Below, one piece after another: positions 14,265 through 27,931 of a stretch of DNA of 64,000 bases. Within the stretch, counting starts at the first letter, position 1. Each line of letters opens with the position of its first letter. The translations under genes and the position numbers were made by a program. The DNA is from a virus, in the IMG/VR virus record IMGVR_UViG_3300033049_000066, positions 62,001 through 126,000 of that record, one strand, 5' to 3'. The notes under the pieces are model-generated. The model was not told where the DNA came from and made no database searches. It worked only from the letters and a program-made list of their open reading frames with translations.

Positions 14265-14507
14265 TTATGCTATGTCTGCGTACATTCCTAGCACCGCGCC
14301 GATGATCTTGTGACGTTGTATGTCACAAGCGGTAAGCTCGCAGGTCGTGATCCCACCAACGGGGCTGTTGAGACGTTCGCACAGATCTATAAGCCCATTG
14401 TCTTTCTTACGTTTGTCAGTCTGTTCCACATCGCCAGTCACTACGATTTTACTACCCTCGCCTATGCGGGTGAGGAGCATTTTCATCTGACCGGGAGTAG
14501 CGTTCTG
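14265..14507 (-). pseudogene. phoH: phoH 3'-terminal fragment displaced by a homing endonuclease
   Basis: On the minus strand this encodes about 80 residues homologous to the C-terminal third of the intact PhoH at 15513 (MKMLLTRIGEGSKIVVTGD against MEMLLTRIGKGSKIVITGD). Homology runs upstream through QNATPGQ, the canonical PhoH sequence after the Walker B aspartate and glutamate, and stops at 14507 with an in-frame TAG just beyond. The fragment has no Walker A and cannot be an active ATPase. Translation from the internal ATG near 14486 is conceivable. The homing endonuclease's late promoter starts two bases away. Confidence 0.8.
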
Positions 14508-14521: not shown

Positions 14522-15535
14522 ATGGACATCTATAAACATTTATGCACGAAGCCTCATAATTCACACCATCTCAAGCGTTATTATCAATTTTTGATTGAAT
14601 GCAGAGAACACAATGTGACTATCATAACTAATAAAGAAGTACACCATATATGCCCTAAGGCATCTGATTTATTTCCGGAGTTTAGTAATCTAAATTTGTA
14701 TGACTGGAATAAAATTGAGTTAACCTATCGTCAACATTTAATCGCACATTGGATGCTCTGGAAAGCGTATGGTGGCTCACAAGCCTACGCATTCTATGCA
14801 ATGAACAATCAAGTGAGCAAACGAGATGGGTGTAGAGTATGTCATAGTAAAATATATGAACAGGCTAAACTTGATGCTAGTATTACAATATCAAATACAA
14901 ACAGAGGATTCGCAGTATATGTTGATTCTGAAGGGCACAAAATTCGGTGCAAAATTAATGATTACCGAGTTAAAAATGGAACGTTGACATCGACTAGCAA
15001 AGGCCGCCAGTATACAGCACGTAGTGAAGAATCAAGAGCCCGGACTAGTGCATCTCTTAAAGGTAAGACTTACGGGCCTATGCAGGTTAGGCATCGGATA
15101 TTACGAAGAAAAATAAAAGTCCAGAAAGAATTGTTTTTCGATCAAAAAGAATATAAGTTTGAAATGATAGATAACTTGTATATTAATGCAAATCATATAA
15201 AGGTATTTACAAACGGCAGGCAGGTGTGGAACACCGACGGTAAGTATCGGCGGGTTAGCATAAAATTACCAATTTCTCCTCCTGGATGGTCATTTATTAA
15301 TCCTAAAATAATAATCAAGGCATTGGATATTACCGACACTAACTTTACAAGTTATATTGAGTGTTTCGGGACCGATTTGCCAAGTAAATATCATACACTA
15401 AGTTTATGCAAAATAGGAAAAGTGATGTTATATTGCACAACATTAATGAAAAATATTTACATTGACAAGGACAGTATTGCTACATACGGAATTCCCAGTA
15501 ATTGTACTCTGCCTAATCGCTGTACATTGCGATAA
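14522..15535 (+). CDS. HNH homing endonuclease
   Basis: 337 residues. The HNH core is at about 40-80: EVHHICPKA (first His pair), the NLNLYDWNKIELT region and RQHLIAHWMLWKAYGG. A possible zinc pair follows (CRVCHS), then a NUMOD3-like DNA-binding patch (SEESRARTSASLKGK, about 177-192), and a C-terminal region of unknown fold. Such enzymes cut an intron- or insert-less allele and spread by repair. The gene lies between an intact phoH and a phoH fragment, both on the opposite strand, and its 3' end overlaps the 3' end of the intact phoH by 23 bases. Confidence 0.9.
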   Translation: MDIYKHLCTKPHNSHHLKRYYQFLIECREHNVTIITNKEVHHICPKASDLFPEFSNLNLYDWNKIELTYRQHLIAHWMLWKAYGGSQAYAFYAMNNQVSKRDGCRVCHSKIYEQAKLDASITISNTNRGFAVYVDSEGHKIRCKINDYRVKNGTLTSTSKGRQYTARSEESRARTSASLKGKTYGPMQVRHRILRRKIKVQKELFFDQKEYKFEMIDNLYINANHIKVFTNGRQVWNTDGKYRRVSIKLPISPPGWSFINPKIIIKALDITDTNFTSYIECFGTDLPSKYHTLSLCKIGKVMLYCTTLMKNIYIDKDSIATYGIPSNCTLPNRCTLR

Positions 15536-16244
15536 TACTATCAATTATTGGGTGCCTGCAAATATCCTTTCGTTCCAGCTGACACGCTGCAATTGCTTTA
15601 TTCGGGTGTTGTTTTAACCGAGCTAATAGATCGGTTAACCCGTTACCTTTTGTAAATTTCTTATCGACTTGCTCAAGATCTCCGGTTATTACGATTTTAC
15701 TTCCTTTGCCGATACGTGTTAGCAGCATCTCCATTTGATTAACTGATGTCGACTGAAACTCATCACCGATGATCCACGAGTGCTTGAAGGTACGACCCCT
15801 CATGAATGCTAGCGGAGCGATTTCCACGACCCCGGTCTCGAGCATTTTTGTAATTTCAAACGCGGAGTAATATTCGCGCATGACATCCAACAGGGGGCGC
15901 GTCCAGGGTGCCATCTTTTCTTCGAGTGTACCAGGTAAGAATCCGTGTTTTTCATCCTCAACGCCGACAGCTGGCCTAGTTAGCACGATACGTTCTATCT
16001 CACTTAGTCGTAATTTTTTAATCGCAGCTAGCATAGCAAGATAAGTCTTACCTGTGCCTGCCGGCCCATGCGCAATGACTATATCTTGCGTATCGTCTAG
16101 TAAGCCTATTATGTATTTTTCCTGGTTGAGCGATTTTGGAATTAGCTGAGTATCTCTAGCCTTGGTTTTTGCTTTTACAGCGTCATTGAAACTGACGACA
16201 CTGCGGGAATTCTTGTGTTGCATTTTCTTTCTAGGTTTTGCCAA
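15513..16244 (-). CDS. phoH: PhoH-like ATPase
   Basis: 243 residues on the minus strand, starting at TTG 16244 with GGAGA seven bases upstream; no in-frame ATG is nearby. Walker A is AHGPAGTGKTYLA (about 58-70). RPAVGVEDEKHGFLPG is the characteristic PhoH segment. The Walker B region reads IIGDEFQSTSVNQME where most relatives have DEAQNATPGQMK, a notable deviation at the position where the downstream fragment breaks. PhoH proteins are cytoplasmic P-loop ATPases common in aquatic phages; the function is unsettled (RNA or phosphate-stress roles proposed). Confidence 0.92.
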   Translation of the reverse strand: MAKPRKKMQHKNSRSVVSFNDAVKAKTKARDTQLIPKSLNQEKYIIGLLDDTQDIVIAHGPAGTGKTYLAMLAAIKKLRLSEIERIVLTRPAVGVEDEKHGFLPGTLEEKMAPWTRPLLDVMREYYSAFEITKMLETGVVEIAPLAFMRGRTFKHSWIIGDEFQSTSVNQMEMLLTRIGKGSKIVITGDLEQVDKKFTKGNGLTDLLARLKQHPNKAIAACQLERKDICRHPIIDSIIAMYSD

Positions 16245-18396: not shown

Positions 18397-21300
18397 ATGT
18401 CGGTTAGGTATAAATTTAAGAGAATAATCTGGCTTTGTGATACAACAGATAAGAAACTTGCGACTGGTCAAGGTCTTCTTTACATGTGGCCTGATCCGAA
18501 TCCGTTAGTACCGCCGAAGTTCGGACTTATTAAGGCAAGTTCATATACTGGTGCAACGCCGGTCGAGGCATTCGAACGACGATATCCAAAATCATCCCAT
18601 AAAATTGATCAAGATAATATCGAACTTTTCGTGTATGAAATTGACGATAACAGGTTACACGATGATAAGATTAGAGCGGAGATCCACAAACGGTATATCC
18701 GTAACCCTGGGAGATTTCCGTTTGATGCTTATGATAAAGTTAATCATGTTGCACCGCAGGGTATTAATAACGAATCTTGCTTAGGTTATAATTACAATGA
18801 ACACAGCGGTGCCCTATTAGGATTAATCAAAGAATATTTCGGGATATTAGTAGTAGCAGACACGAGGGATCCGTGGATCCCTCGTGAAGCAGACCAAGAA
18901 AATACAGCAAAAGAAATCGCAAAAAAGTTAAAAACCAATGCACGGATTGCGTTAAACGGCCATACCGGATATGCGAAAATTATGATTACAATGGTCGCAA
19001 TACACCGGCATATATATCCATCAGATGGAGCATTTATTTTAGCAACTACGCCTGTAATTGACACGCTGTCGGGTATTATTTCGGATGCCACCGATTGGTA
19101 TTATGGTGGCAATCGGTGTAGACGAACTGTAGTCTATGACCGGGAGGCGCTAAATAATGGTAAAACCATTGCTGCAATGCGACAAGAAGCGGATAATGGC
19201 GACATAGTTTTCCTGAGCTTATCAGTTCAGGATATGCGATTTCAAGACAACGCATCATTGGTTATTGATGATAAAGAATTACGAGAAAAATACAAAGATT
19301 TAATTAGTGATGAGATTGAAATTGACCTATGGATAAGAGATGAAGCGCATTTTAACTATGCTGGCCTAGTAACCTCGAAGGTATTTGCTAGTTTGGATGA
19401 TCGGTGTCGATATATTATCGACACTAGCGCTAGCATTAACAAAATCGCTAACAATTACCACCCGGACTCAATAATAGACCGAGGCTTATTTTGGGCGCTT
19501 GCGCATGAAACAGAAAGGAAAACACCTCATATCCATATCGAGTCCCTTTCCGGAATGTGTTACGATACGCTAAGTCCCGACGTTCGTGAGGTATATAACG
19601 AAACCGAAGGATGGAGCCCATCAAAAATGACCGAACTTTTGCCGAACGGTCAGTTTAGAAGTTTAATCGCGATTAACTATATTTTAGAGAAACAGTATAT
19701 TTGCACCGATGAAAAGGAAGAAAATCCTTTGTCAATCATCAATGACATTGACTTACCGTATAAGTGTCGCCGCGTTGGCATGCATCTTTTTCCGGAGGGT
19801 GTCAACGGTACCCCTGCGAATATATACTTAAAAAAACTCGCAGATGATTTAAACGCAATGCCTCAATGGAGTCAGAAAGATGCATACGGGATAGCAAGGG
19901 CAATATTCATAACTCCTTATAATTTTAAAAAACATGCAGCAGCTCATACAAAGTCTAGCAACTCGTATCGCGATGTCATCGACTATCTCATGCAAACGTA
20001 TACTCATGTCGTTATTCTGACCCACAGGCGGTGGATCTTAGGTTCGAATATTCCGCCACTCGGACATGCAGTACAATGGGATAAAATTGTTGATCCATAC
20101 TGTCAAGAACAATTTGCCCCTGGAAGATTATTTAGAATCATGCCATGGAAAACTGCGATTAAGATATATGACCTGGCACCAGGCCACTATCTACAGAATT
20201 CAATATCGGAGATTGCGGCCAGCAGCAGTAAAATATTAAAGCAACCCGATGTTACGATCCTGTTACGTAATATTAGTTTTACAAGATATGAAAAAGGGAT
20301 CGGCATGAGATCTTGGACTCCGGAAGAGGTGTTTCGGCCATATAATAACATGCTTACTCGAAAATCCTTGTCGACGATTGGAGCCAGTATCTTAACAACA
20401 TTATCGTCCGTTGAGATTAATGCGTTGGCTTCGGCTTCATCTTCGTTAAAAAAGAACAAGGTGCTCGGAACAAACGAAAAAACTCAGCTTGTTGCTGAAA
20501 CCGGTACAGAGAAAGCTGCACCGAAGAACCAAAAAAGAAACAAGCAAGGCAAGGCGCCGGTTATGAATGACCGTAAAACATTAGATTTAATTAATAATAT
20601 ACTATTAGAAATCCCGTTTGTTGCTGTATCTACTAACATTTTGTTAATTGATGAAATATTAGATCATAGTATGATTCGGAGGATGTTTAATAGTATCATA
20701 GTTGACACTCTGCTAAATATCATAGCTAATAACCAAATTTTTAAACATGAATTACAGGATAAATTAACAGATATTCATTTAGCATTTGGGATATTGCCAT
20801 TTCTGGATATGCACGACGAGATATTTAAAAATACAACATTAAAAAAAGGTGAAGGCATTGTGTTTGTAAATTGCGAGGCCGCCGAATTTTTTGCAAATGA
20901 ATTTATTCGAGTATTTGCAATACCCAAACATACAACAGAAACAGTAGCAGTAGGAAACGCATTAAGTGGTAGTATACCGTTTTATTTGCAAAAACTGTTG
21001 CCTTGTGCTAATATAATATGTATTGAGAATAGTGATTACTATATTAGTCACTTAAAATCGTTGGGATTTACGTGTATAAAATACAACAACTTAAAGGAAA
21101 ACATGGTAAAAATTAAATACTGGGCCATTAACGCACCTTACCAAAAGGATGCGGGTGGTGTGAATGATAGCGGTAACAAACAGGGCAGCTATTGGTTTGC
21201 TTTCGTCGAAAAGATATTTGCGGTCGGACCCCCGGATGCGAAAATATTTAGTATCTCACCAAAGGCTATATTTGGAGCAGGCAATTATGGAAAATCAGCG

Positions 21301-21924
21301 TCAAAGGTAGCGAAAATATGCAATCATGGAAATTTTGTTCATATATGGCCGGACCTTGGGTCTCGGTTCCCTGGTGTAAGTATTCCAATTTGTGGATATG
21401 CAATAGATTTAGCAAAAACTACACCATATGCGACAGTTGATGGTTACGCTGACACCGATACGGTTATAATTAATAGCGATTACCCCGCCCCTTTTTATTT
21501 TTCTCCGGCTGCTGTTCGTATTATACAAAACTCATGGCAACAACACAAATCATTTGCGAATTTTGTAGAAAACTTGAACGCTAAGGACGACAATGTCGTC
21601 CTTAGAGTTAATGGTGGTCGTTTTAAACTCTGGAAGAAACTGTTTGTTGGGTTTGATCGAGATACCCAAAATAATCTTCAAGGAGCAGTAATCAACGATA
21701 ATGAACTCCCGGGGTATTTGTCAGCTAGTAAATGTAAACTATGGGAATATATCTTTAAAGTAATGGGTTGTGAAAAAGGTAATTCGGTTACTGGCGTATT
21801 CCAGCATTTACCAATAATGGACGATATGACCAGATCATATACTGATCAGGAATGGTTTTCTGCCTTTAACATCGATGAGCAAATGCAAAGAGAGATCGCA
21901 AAATTCCTACGTGAGGTCAAATGA
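18397..21924 (+). CDS. GIY-YIG-like / SF2 helicase / N6-adenine methyltransferase-like fusion
   Basis: 1175 residues in three parts. Residues 1-125 resemble T5orf172/GIY-YIG domains (FGLIKAS, VEAFERRYP, VYEIDDN, then HKRY). Residues about 170-640 are an SF2 helicase with an eroded Walker A (NGHTGYAKI instead of TGxGKT), an intact DEAH (WIRDEAHF) and a motif V/VI-like block (LTHRRWILGSNIPP, FAPGRLFR). Residues about 820-1175 resemble an adenine methyltransferase: motif I is degenerate (VGNALSGSIP), CIENSDYY is motif II-like and NAPYQ stands for NPPY. It resembles restriction or DarB-type antirestriction enzymes. Activity is uncertain. Confidence 0.7.
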   Translation: MSVRYKFKRIIWLCDTTDKKLATGQGLLYMWPDPNPLVPPKFGLIKASSYTGATPVEAFERRYPKSSHKIDQDNIELFVYEIDDNRLHDDKIRAEIHKRYIRNPGRFPFDAYDKVNHVAPQGINNESCLGYNYNEHSGALLGLIKEYFGILVVADTRDPWIPREADQENTAKEIAKKLKTNARIALNGHTGYAKIMITMVAIHRHIYPSDGAFILATTPVIDTLSGIISDATDWYYGGNRCRRTVVYDREALNNGKTIAAMRQEADNGDIVFLSLSVQDMRFQDNASLVIDDKELREKYKDLISDEIEIDLWIRDEAHFNYAGLVTSKVFASLDDRCRYIIDTSASINKIANNYHPDSIIDRGLFWALAHETERKTPHIHIESLSGMCYDTLSPDVREVYNETEGWSPSKMTELLPNGQFRSLIAINYILEKQYICTDEKEENPLSIINDIDLPYKCRRVGMHLFPEGVNGTPANIYLKKLADDLNAMPQWSQKDAYGIARAIFITPYNFKKHAAAHTKSSNSYRDVIDYLMQTYTHVVILTHRRWILGSNIPPLGHAVQWDKIVDPYCQEQFAPGRLFRIMPWKTAIKIYDLAPGHYLQNSISEIAASSSKILKQPDVTILLRNISFTRYEKGIGMRSWTPEEVFRPYNNMLTRKSLSTIGASILTTLSSVEINALASASSSLKKNKVLGTNEKTQLVAETGTEKAAPKNQKRNKQGKAPVMNDRKTLDLINNILLEIPFVAVSTNILLIDEILDHSMIRRMFNSIIVDTLLNIIANNQIFKHELQDKLTDIHLAFGILPFLDMHDEIFKNTTLKKGEGIVFVNCEAAEFFANEFIRVFAIPKHTTETVAVGNALSGSIPFYLQKLLPCANIICIENSDYYISHLKSLGFTCIKYNNLKENMVKIKYWAINAPYQKDAGGVNDSGNKQGSYWFAFVEKIFAVGPPDAKIFSISPKAIFGAGNYGKSASKVAKICNHGNFVHIWPDLGSRFPGVSIPICGYAIDLAKTTPYATVDGYADTDTVIINSDYPAPFYFSPAAVRIIQNSWQQHKSFANFVENLNAKDDNVVLRVNGGRFKLWKKLFVGFDRDTQNNLQGAVINDNELPGYLSASKCKLWEYIFKVMGCEKGNSVTGVFQHLPIMDDMTRSYTDQEWFSAFNIDEQMQREIAKFLREVK
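18861..18886. repeat. perfect 12-bp inverted repeat inside the helicase gene
   Basis: CACGAGGGATCC and its exact complement are separated by two bases. It lies in codons for TRDPWIPRE and is too long for a chance palindrome. Confidence 0.85.
21581..21605. repeat. perfect 12-bp inverted repeat inside the methyltransferase part
   Basis: CTAAGGACGACA, one central A, then the exact complement. It lies in codons for AKDDNVVLR in the same gene as the palindrome at 18861, with unrelated arm sequence. Confidence 0.85.
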
Positions 21925-22451
21925 TTGACAGCATTATTAAACATATTCGTGATCGACCGTATATGTCAGGAGTTAGTAGGGACAATGTTCGGGTGCGCTC
22001 AACGGCTGAAGTATTTACTAGAACAGATTTAGTTCTTGACTATATCAACTGGACTGATAAGAAATACCCCGATGCCTTTACAGATCCAAATAACAATTGG
22101 TGCGATAACTCAGCCGGCGATGGTCAATTATTGGGTGAGGTGCTAATCCGAAAAGTTGAACGAGCATTGGAGATAAGACAAATAACAAATTGCACAAAAG
22201 ACAGCATCGAAGGCTATGCAGCAATTTTTGAAAACGCTTTGCGTCATATATACGGTGTTGATAACCAACAATCTAATGTTGATTTATGTCGAGAGCGACT
22301 ACTATGTGGTCATGAAGAATTTAGGCACATTGTAGAAAATAATATAATCTGTGCCGACGCACTCGAATACGACTACAGCTTTGATGGGTCTTGGGAAAAG
22401 AAACAAGCCATGAATAAAAAGAAAGATGATCTATTTGATTTTGGTGACTAA
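21921..22451 (+). CDS. DNA methyltransferase N-terminal-type protein (motifs X and I)
   Basis: 176 residues overlapping the upstream gene by ATGA. RSTAEVFTRTDLVLDYI corresponds to motif X. WCDNSAGDGQLLGEVLIRK corresponds to the SAM-binding motif I of N6-adenine methyltransferases (usual form DPxxGxGxFL). IYGVDNQQSNVDLCRERLL is motif II. The protein ends before any NPPY motif. Since the upstream protein has NAPYQ but a poor motif I, the two might assemble into one methyltransferase. Either could also be an inactive relic. It ends in a DLFDFGD tail like that of the transglycosylase at 43008. Confidence 0.7.
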   Translation: MIDSIIKHIRDRPYMSGVSRDNVRVRSTAEVFTRTDLVLDYINWTDKKYPDAFTDPNNNWCDNSAGDGQLLGEVLIRKVERALEIRQITNCTKDSIEGYAAIFENALRHIYGVDNQQSNVDLCRERLLCGHEEFRHIVENNIICADALEYDYSFDGSWEKKQAMNKKKDDLFDFGD

Positions 22452-24506: not shown

Positions 24507-25280
24507 ATGTCAAATCCGTATAGTACACTTGGACTAACCTCGTCTGCCACTAGTGATGAAGTAAAACGTGCTTATAGAAAGCTGGCGATGAAATTCCACC
24601 CGGACCGCAATGACGGAAAGGATGCCAAGTTCAAGGAGATCAAGTCAGCGTACGATCAGATACAAAAAGGCCCGAGCCAAGACCCCGACGCGTGGTCGAC
24701 ATTTCGCAAGGAAGGTGGTTTTGCTGGAGCAGCCGGCCGGAGTTCAGTTTTTGATGATTTCTTCAATAATCGCAGACCGAACTACAAACCATCTACTGTA
24801 AATTTGTCAGCGCAAATACCATTCGCAGACGCTATATGCGGTAATCCTCAATTTTTAAAAATAAATGTCCATGGTAAATCAAAAACTGTTAAGGTTGAAA
24901 TACCTGCTGGGTTAACTCATGGTGAGAAGATAAAATACGCAAAGCTAGTCGATGGCATTGATGTTATCATTTCCTTTATAGTTGAGCCAACTCCTATGTG
25001 GGAATTGGACAAGCTAGATTTAATTCAAACACCAGATATAAGTATTTGGGATTTAATAACAGGCGGGGAGTTAGACGTTTCGTTAATTAATGGTAAAGTA
25101 ATACGCCTAAAGATTCCGGCCGGAACTCAACCTAACACCGTAATGCGGGTACAAGGAAAAGGAGTGCAATCACGTGTAACTAAAGTATTATACGGCGACA
25201 TGCTAGTTAAACTAAATGCCACGATACCAAAGGACATTCCAGCTGATCTTTTAAATATGATTAGGAAGGTCAACAGCTAA
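24507..25280 (+). CDS. DnaJ/CbpA-type co-chaperone
   Basis: 257 residues. The J domain (about 1-55) contains [19 protein letters not shown] and the HPD motif at 31-33, needed to stimulate Hsp70 (DnaK). A short Gly/Ser-containing linker follows ([15 protein letters not shown]). The two C-terminal substrate-binding beta domains ([24 protein letters not shown]-like) come next. There is no zinc-finger repeat, so it is a CbpA-like (type B) protein. It would direct host DnaK to phage substrates in the cytoplasm. ClpA and a deformylase-like protein follow. Confidence 0.92.
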
Positions 25281-25672: not shown

Positions 25673-27931
25673 ATGCAAATCAATCCAGAAATCGAGCAGA
25701 TAACCGACTACGCAATTGCTCTCGCAAAACGGCAGCATCAGGAATATGTATTAGTTGAACATTTGCTGGTCGCATTAATAAGTTACGAACCATTTTACAA
25801 TTGTTTAAAAGGTTACGGTGTTAATATCGACGCAATGGTGAATGACATTGAGCTGTACCTGCATAATTTACCGGCAGCTCCGAGCACTGTCGAAAAGCCA
25901 AAACGAACTAACAGCATAGAGCGAGTGTTCAACCGTGCTGTAACGCAGGTTATATTTAGTGGTCGGCGCTTTGTTACTACAATTGATTTATTCTTGGCGA
26001 TCTCGTCTGAGGCAAGCAGCCACGCATCATATTTTATTTTAAAATATGGCGTTGATGACAAGGAGGCGATCGCATCGTACTGGAATGATAACTACAGCGA
26101 TATCGGTGGGAAGATGAGCGATACGCAATCAGACGAGGTGCTTGAAGAACATTGCACAAACGTATCGGCCAAGGCAGCAGCAGGTGAGCTCGAGCCGCTT
26201 ATTGGGCGAGAGGCCGAAGTGAAGGACGCGATAGAAATCCTCGCTAAGAAATTTAAGTCCAATGTGCTGATGGTCGGGGAGCCAGGTGTAGGCAAAACCG
26301 TCATCTTAGAAGGGCTCGCACAGAAAATCAACGCCGACGAAGTGCCGACGTTCATGAAGGGACACACCGTCTGGGAGCTCAACATCGGTGACATGCTCGC
26401 TGGCAGCAAGTACCGAGGAGAATTTGAAGAGAAATTTAAGAAAGTGATCAAGGCCTTGGAAGCGTCGGGCAAGGGTATACTTTTTATCGACGAAGCTCAC
26501 ACTATGAAGGGTGCTGGCAGCGGCGCAGGATCATCGTTGGATTTCGCGAACATGCTGAAGCCGGTGATCACACGCGGCAAGATCAAGGTCGTCGCCTGCA
26601 CCACCTGGGACGAATACTACGAATCCTTCGAGAAAGATAAGGCATTGATGCGCAGATTTTACAAACTAATTGTCGACGAACCAGATCACGACACCACAGT
26701 GAAGATTTTAACGGGCGTGGCGAAACGTCTGTCAGCATATCACAATGTGAAAATCGACCCGAGTGCTATCGCGTCAACCGTGGACTTGAGTACTCGCTAC
26801 ATTCACGACAGATTCAACCCAGACAAATCAATCGACATCTTAGACGCGGCCTGCGCTAAGGAACGTGCGAGTGACAACCACGACACGCTAATTAAAACTG
26901 AACATATCATTCAGCAACTAAGCAAAGTCACCGGCGTACCTACAGAACGTCTAAGCAATGAAAAAAGCAAGACACTATTGACACTGCGTGGCAATATCGA
27001 CAGCAAATTATTCGGCCAAGAAGATGCGGTGGAAGAAGTACTTAATAAAATTTACATCAACTTTGGTGGATTAGCCGAAGAAAATAAACCAGTCGCAAGC
27101 TTCTTGTTTCTTGGGCCAACCGGCACAGGTAAAACCGAGCTAGCTAAGCTAATCAGTGAAAACTTAGACATGGAACTATTACGTTACGATATGTCCGAGT
27201 ACATGGAAAAACATACAGTGGCATCACTTATTGGTGCGCCACCGGGTTATGTCGGCTACGAAGAGTCAGGTGGTGGTGGCAAGCTAATCTCAGATATTAG
27301 CAAACATCCATTCTCTGTACTGTTACTTGACGAAGTTGAGAAAGCTCACCCTGACGTGTTCAACGTGCTGCTGCAGGTCCTGGACGAAGGTAAGATTACT
27401 AGTCGCAGCGGAAAATCAGTGTCACTGCGAAATACAATCGTCATCATGACGTCAAATCTTGGCGCAGCTGACAATGAGAAAAATAACATTGGTTTCACAG
27501 ACCTGGCCCGCAGCGGCGAAGAAGATAAAGCAGTTAAAGAATTCTTTAAACCTGAGTTCCGCAACAGACTTGACGGTATTGCTAAGTTCAAGAAACTTGA
27601 AGATATAAATGTGAAGAAAATTGTTGTCAAGTTCATAAACGAACTAAAAGTCAGCTTGAAATCTAAGGGGATTGCATTCAACGCAACAGAGGCGGCCATC
27701 AATCATATTGCTGATACTGGTTACGATTCAGCACTTGGAGCACGGCCAATTAAACGACAGATCTCAGATGTGTTTAAACAGCCACTAAGTAAACGAATAT
27801 TATTTGAAGAATTAAGCAATTGCACAATTACCGCAGATTATGTCGACGGAGAAATTGTATTTACTGACACATGCGTTCCGGTAATCCCAGAGCTAAATCC
27901 CGAACCACATATTTTAACCCAAGATATTTAA
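25673..27931 (+). CDS. clpA: ClpA-type AAA+ unfoldase
   Basis: 752 residues, the usual ClpA length. The N-domain (about 1-140) starts EIEQITDYAIALAKRQHQEYV. AAA1 has GEPGVGKT near 202 and FIDEAH. AAA2 has GPTGTGKTE near 481 and LLLDEVEKAHPDV. The ClpP-docking loop is preserved as IGF (residues 606-608, within NNIGFTDLA), where bacterial ClpA has IGL. That suggests it can dock host ClpP and redirect proteolysis. Codons are not unusual for the window. The stop is followed by a stem-loop. Confidence 0.93.
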   Translation: MQINPEIEQITDYAIALAKRQHQEYVLVEHLLVALISYEPFYNCLKGYGVNIDAMVNDIELYLHNLPAAPSTVEKPKRTNSIERVFNRAVTQVIFSGRRFVTTIDLFLAISSEASSHASYFILKYGVDDKEAIASYWNDNYSDIGGKMSDTQSDEVLEEHCTNVSAKAAAGELEPLIGREAEVKDAIEILAKKFKSNVLMVGEPGVGKTVILEGLAQKINADEVPTFMKGHTVWELNIGDMLAGSKYRGEFEEKFKKVIKALEASGKGILFIDEAHTMKGAGSGAGSSLDFANMLKPVITRGKIKVVACTTWDEYYESFEKDKALMRRFYKLIVDEPDHDTTVKILTGVAKRLSAYHNVKIDPSAIASTVDLSTRYIHDRFNPDKSIDILDAACAKERASDNHDTLIKTEHIIQQLSKVTGVPTERLSNEKSKTLLTLRGNIDSKLFGQEDAVEEVLNKIYINFGGLAEENKPVASFLFLGPTGTGKTELAKLISENLDMELLRYDMSEYMEKHTVASLIGAPPGYVGYEESGGGGKLISDISKHPFSVLLLDEVEKAHPDVFNVLLQVLDEGKITSRSGKSVSLRNTIVIMTSNLGAADNEKNNIGFTDLARSGEEDKAVKEFFKPEFRNRLDGIAKFKKLEDINVKKIVVKFINELKVSLKSKGIAFNATEAAINHIADTGYDSALGARPIKRQISDVFKQPLSKRILFEELSNCTITADYVDGEIVFTDTCVPVIPELNPEPHILTQDI

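Follow-up and report, generated by a model that had tools for sequence, protein, structure and literature searches.

Type ISP restriction enzymes such as LlaGI and LlaBIII combine on one chain, and in this order, a nuclease, an SF2 ATPase, a helical coupler, a methyltransferase and a recognition domain (PMC4666363). The methyltransferases M.BseCI, M.TaqI and CamA are likewise each complete in one chain. In the permuted (beta-order) adenine methyltransferases, motifs IV-VIII and the recognition region come first and are followed by X-I-II-III; the model of permutation by duplication (Jeltsch 1999) and the methyltransferase classes are cited here through PMC6158711 and PMC5944983. A survey of jumbo phages mentions a circularly permuted M.EcoKI-like methylase (PMC7824862). 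Among phage proteins, P1 DarB is large and is annotated as helicase and methyltransferase. We found no description of a split series of such enzymes, or of cassette swapping among them, in the literature searched, which covers the field in part.

Here we describe a gene pair from a 64,000-nucleotide stretch of DNA (the window), which spans 62001-126000 of a virus record of 293 kb. We propose that the two overlapping genes probably encode one N6-adenine methyltransferase in two chains, built onto a restriction-like ATPase.

Results

The locus and its two genes

A giant ORF (18397-21924, 1175 aa) and a small ORF (21921-22451, 176 aa) overlap by the four letters ATGA, and a GAGG ends 4 bases ahead of the ATG of the small gene. 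The features are:

18397..21924, + strand: giant gene, 1175 aa; a GIY-YIG-like domain, then SF2 ATPase and helical linker, then a methyltransferase that includes motif IV and the recognition domain
18397..18846, + strand: GIY-YIG-like N-terminal domain, about residues 1-150; Y29, K41-x-G43, R62 and N124-x-E126 kept in relatives
18874..20271, + strand: SF2 helicase-type ATPase, about residues 160-625; structural matches to Snf2h and RadD
18958..18981, + strand: Walker A, altered to GHTGYAKI (residues 188-195) where relatives have GKT
19339..19350, + strand: DEAH box, residues 315-318
20320..20871, + strand: helical linker from ATPase to methyltransferase, about residues 642-825, from the secondary structure of the model
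20872..21111, + strand: the giant's own methyltransferase N-half, about residues 826-905; NALSG (854-858) replaces SAM motif I
21112..21921, + strand: catalytic cassette, from motif IV NAPYQ (912-916) through the target-recognition domain
21913..21916, + strand: GAGG, likely ribosome-binding site of the small gene, within the giant gene
21921..22451, + strand: small SAM-binding half, 176 aa; motifs X, I, II and III, without IV
22104..22124, + strand: SAM motif I of the small protein, intact as DNSAGDG (residues 62-68)

All the motifs named in an earlier note on this DNA (GHTGYAKI, DEAH and NAPYQ in the giant; motif X, DNSAGDG and no motif IV in the small gene) were confirmed. The small protein carries FTRTDLV (X, residues 32-38), DNSAGDG (I, 62-68), GVDNQ (II, 112-116) and CADAL (III, 144-148) and ends ahead of motif IV, which in the giant reads NAPY, the usual form being NPPY. 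Pfam and PADLOC scans assigned neither protein to a family.

The giant resembles Type ISP enzymes in the order of its parts, its nuclease being recognised by residue pattern only. It seems to differ from them in its nuclease, for which this pattern is GIY-YIG-like and not Mrr as in Type ISP; it further differs in that its Walker A is non-canonical (AKI for the GKT that its relatives keep), and in that its SAM motif I is replaced by NALSG, an intact one lying in the second gene. Consistent with the common order, when the giant was modelled with AlphaFold (mean pLDDT 68) its best whole-chain fold match was the Type ISP enzyme LlaBIII (4xqk, E 4.3e-14). The methyltransferase part is Eco57I/TaqI-like with a target-recognition domain; in the model, the fold of residues 813-1164 matches those of M.BseCI (Z 17.7 over 335 residues, 813-1163), M.TaqI and CamA. 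For P1 DarB, which the earlier note had offered as a parallel, BLASTP found nothing (best E 0.61), so that the two are comparable only by analogy, in the domains they contain.

The earlier note had also described the motifs of the giant as eroded. Motif I is indeed replaced and Walker A altered, but the sequence at motif I, NALxGxxP, is common to the four nearest giants (L047, L066, L071 and L080, 27-28% identical to that of the window) and to one S-CAM7 protein, which argues against random erosion. The Walker A change from GKT to AKI, in contrast, occurs in the window giant only, its relatives reading TSRGKT, TARGKT or PSFGKT. The same holds for helicase motif III, where TAT has become SAS in the window while remaining intact in the four nearest relatives. 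The helicase retains DEAH and GRxxR, and the N-half of the methyltransferase retains the acidic residue (IENS) that follows strand 2.

The residues of the GIY-YIG-like pattern (Y, KxG, R and NxE) are kept both in the window and across the relatives of the giant. The domain gave a weak domain model and no Pfam match, and hhalign against another nuclease group was not significant; one relative, L020, matches PF10544 (T5orf172/GIY-YIG) at 3.3e-10. The proposal that the protein is a restriction-enzyme mimic that has lost cutting is therefore unsupported as it was put, since the GIY-YIG-like residues are kept and the changes lie in the ATPase, at Walker A and at motif III.

The small protein and its family

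Neither tblastn of the giant against phage records nor a direct scan of viral contigs gave a match, and relatives were therefore reached through the small protein. Its residues 2-159 match L002 at 42%, and it also matches PHROG families of phage methyltransferase fragments as well as distant cyanophage and Aeromonas phage proteins. With a profile of 15 members, 521 relatives were found in viral contigs; only 5 were found in 84,980 prokaryotic genomes, some of them on short metagenome-bin contigs, a ratio that is rough because the two scans used different alignments.

The unfused small proteins examined contain X, I, II and III and stop before motif IV. Their profile matches residues 11-105 of M.BseCI, and the X-III region resembles M.TaqI and CamA in sequence as well. 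Small proteins match PF02384 (N6_Mtase) and large ones PF07669 (Eco57I), the profile of the large proteins matching TaqI, BseCI and CamA through the catalytic half. The C-terminal part of the giant matches family profile A7 at 6.9e-64, a value inflated because the window is itself one of the 14 rows of that profile. Taken with those to L002, PHROG and M.BseCI, this match indicates that the motifs in the window are more than chance.

Split, fused and permuted forms

At the family level, X-III and the region from IV onward lie on separate, adjacent chains that are conserved together, the small gene being adjoined by an Eco57I-type protein with motif IV. A separate gene of this kind stands beside 61 of 73 non-redundant small genes, and 3 more small genes are fused to one. 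The remaining 9 have no motif-IV neighbour, and 5 of these are at contig ends. As a rule a helicase lies upstream, in several loci together with a domain of GIY-YIG or T5orf172-like type; within the DNA covered, 55 of the 72 non-redundant loci show the helicase. In 12 loci the helicase is fused to the methyltransferase, giving single giants of 1097-1237 aa like that of the window.

Several of these loci have features of their own. The small SAM-half genes L019 8968 (from a Prevotella Lak megaphage), L043 5989 and L048 5935 have no adjacent motif-IV gene, and their partner, if any, is elsewhere. At L008 1502-8540, one small gene follows a tandem run of five large methyltransferase genes, which are nearly identical in their N-halves but have different cassettes and recognition ends. 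At L018 2182-8127 (Vibrio phage PVA23) the split pair lies among genes for 7-deazaguanine synthesis, a GIY-YIG domain being present in the first gene of the two. A possible Mrr-like (PD-(D/E)XK) nuclease gene adjoins the split genes of three cyanophage-type loci (L002 2118-2705, L003 6416-7054 and L014 6403-6966).

The two chains treat motif I very differently. Its pattern is matched by 71 of the 73 small proteins, and the other two have a one-residue insertion. Among the 61 paired large proteins, which were chosen by having motif IV so that its presence there is no result, motif I is kept in 16, the N-half is altered in 42 and there is none in 3. Motif I is good in the large proteins of L008, L013 and L040, which might work alone. 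In other lineages the N-halves lack any glycine loop (FNVEFV types) or are absent altogether. In the P-SSM2 pair (AAX44414 and AAX44415), the cleanest split, the large protein (193 aa) begins at its NPPY motif IV and the overlapping next gene holds X-III; L041 is arranged likewise. Aeromonas T4-like phages have one chain of 384-415 aa with NPPY and IV-VIII first and X-III last, exactly the circularly permuted order. The model of this fusion was poor (pLDDT 48), and the joined fold was not visible in it.

Those large proteins in which motif I is intact have N-halves homologous to the small protein (hhalign 98.9%), as would be left by a partial duplication. The N-halves of the window clade are in turn homologous to these intact ones (hhalign 97.5%, a value helped by shared motif IV columns). 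The family differs from described permuted enzymes in having two chains, and in that the first N-half is often still present but altered, much as the intermediate of the duplication model would be. Overall, this family-level comparison supports the earlier suggestion of one methyltransferase divided over two chains.

Cassette swapping and selection

In a tree of the region from motif IV onward, intact and altered N-halves are intermixed. Of the 26 pairs whose identity after motif IV is 42% or more, 17 have at most 32% before it, against a median background of 21%; cassettes 42-83% identical sit on N-halves of background identity. Conversely, among 134 pairs with similar N-halves, the cassettes are dissimilar in 113. 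Pairs inside one clade are not independent in any of these counts. One such pair is L040 and L042, which share 83% identity past motif IV but 28% ahead of it. At the breakpoint, nucleotide identity jumps from about 50% to 80% at motif IV. Since similar cassettes thus occur on unrelated N-halves with the break at motif IV, we conclude from the alignments that the module of motif IV and recognition domain is a swappable cassette, for which the small protein is the constant partner.

Motif I changes 24 times on the tree of cassettes. A reading of these changes as erosion in place was rejected because cassettes move between N-halves. The identity of the small protein correlates weakly with that of the N-half (0.16) and of the cassette (0.22), and is uninformative as to which of them it travels with.

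Where pairs of relatives allowed dN/dS to be computed, it was 0.05-0.08 for the giants and 0.07-0.14 for the small genes. Purifying selection thus acts on both genes in these measurable pairs, contradicting a decay of both in relatives, which the earlier note had named as part of what would count against its proposal.

Discussion

We suggest that the giant contributes motif IV for catalysis together with the recognition domain, and that the 176-aa protein contributes the cofactor half (X, I, II and III), docking on the giant to complete an active site that would act on adenine. That SAM is supplied in trans by the small protein seems the simplest reading, because cassettes occur with or without a SAM motif in the N-half while the small protein is constant. 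The ATGA overlap with its GAGG inside the giant gene, and the purifying selection in relatives, also speak for a single enzyme. The altered N-half of the giant would then be a remnant of an ancestral complete enzyme, now serving mainly as a joint between the ATPase linker and the cassette. Most likely, the pair would methylate phage DNA within a phage-borne system resembling restriction-modification, either protecting the phage or attacking unmodified DNA of a competitor or host. A more elaborate version, which we regard as decidedly unlikely, makes the small protein a switch: the giant alone would recognise and act on its sites, methylating only once the SAM half docks, so that one cassette serves restriction and modification by subunit exchange and is traded between phages by recombination at motif IV.

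What weighs most against the split enzyme is the model of the giant, in which the altered N-half lies beside NAPY, so that the small half would have to push it aside or bind in another way. The unusual NAPY itself, the large proteins with a good motif I and the three small genes without a large neighbour count against it too. An alternative is that the giant methylates without a partner, its N-half still binding SAM by an unorthodox mode, and that the small protein is a separate SAM-binding regulator. As a whole domain the N-half does match M.BseCI, TaqI and CamA, it keeps the acidic residue of IENS and the NALxG of its clade, and some large proteins keep motif I itself. However, the N-halves of other lineages lack any glycine loop or are missing, whereas motif I of the small protein is always kept, and we consider activity of the giant alone possible but on the unlikely side. 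That the small protein completes a different methyltransferase elsewhere in the phage, its neighbourhood being incidental, is extremely improbable: three small genes (L019, L043 and L048) do lack a large neighbour, but adjacency or fusion is the rule among the 73, five of the nine exceptions lie at contig ends, and no second copy of the cassette or of the small part was found elsewhere in the 293-kb record, which may be incomplete.

The changes peculiar to the window raise another question, namely whether its system is dying, with ATPase and methylation lost and its genes persisting through inertia or in the role of a DNA-binding mimic. Both ATPase substitutions occur only here, and the branch of the giant is very long (4.29). 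Yet a frame of 1175 codons has stayed open at 27-28% identity, with the GIY-YIG-like residues, DEAH, GRxxR and motif IV kept; the small gene is fully intact, and relatives are under purifying selection. We therefore hold decay to be very unlikely, and favour the two-chain enzyme.

If the two-chain enzyme is real, the family offers a natural series of adenine methyltransferases from complete through split to circularly permuted, on which the duplication model could be tested with natural enzymes. It would also represent a phage-specific modification system whose target specificity is changed by a cassette swap cut at the catalytic motif, and with it a new way of reading and predicting phage DNA methylation.

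Other features of the window

Upstream of the pair, a 73-aa fragment (14265-14486, - strand) resembles the C-terminal end of a PhoH-like ATPase gene (15513-16244, - strand), and an HNH-like ORF (14522-15535, + strand) lies between the two. Such a layout could stem from insertion of a homing endonuclease gene, with duplication of the PhoH-like end. Downstream, the phage carries a DnaJ-like gene (24507-25280) near a gene for a ClpA/ClpB-like AAA+ chaperone (25673-27931).
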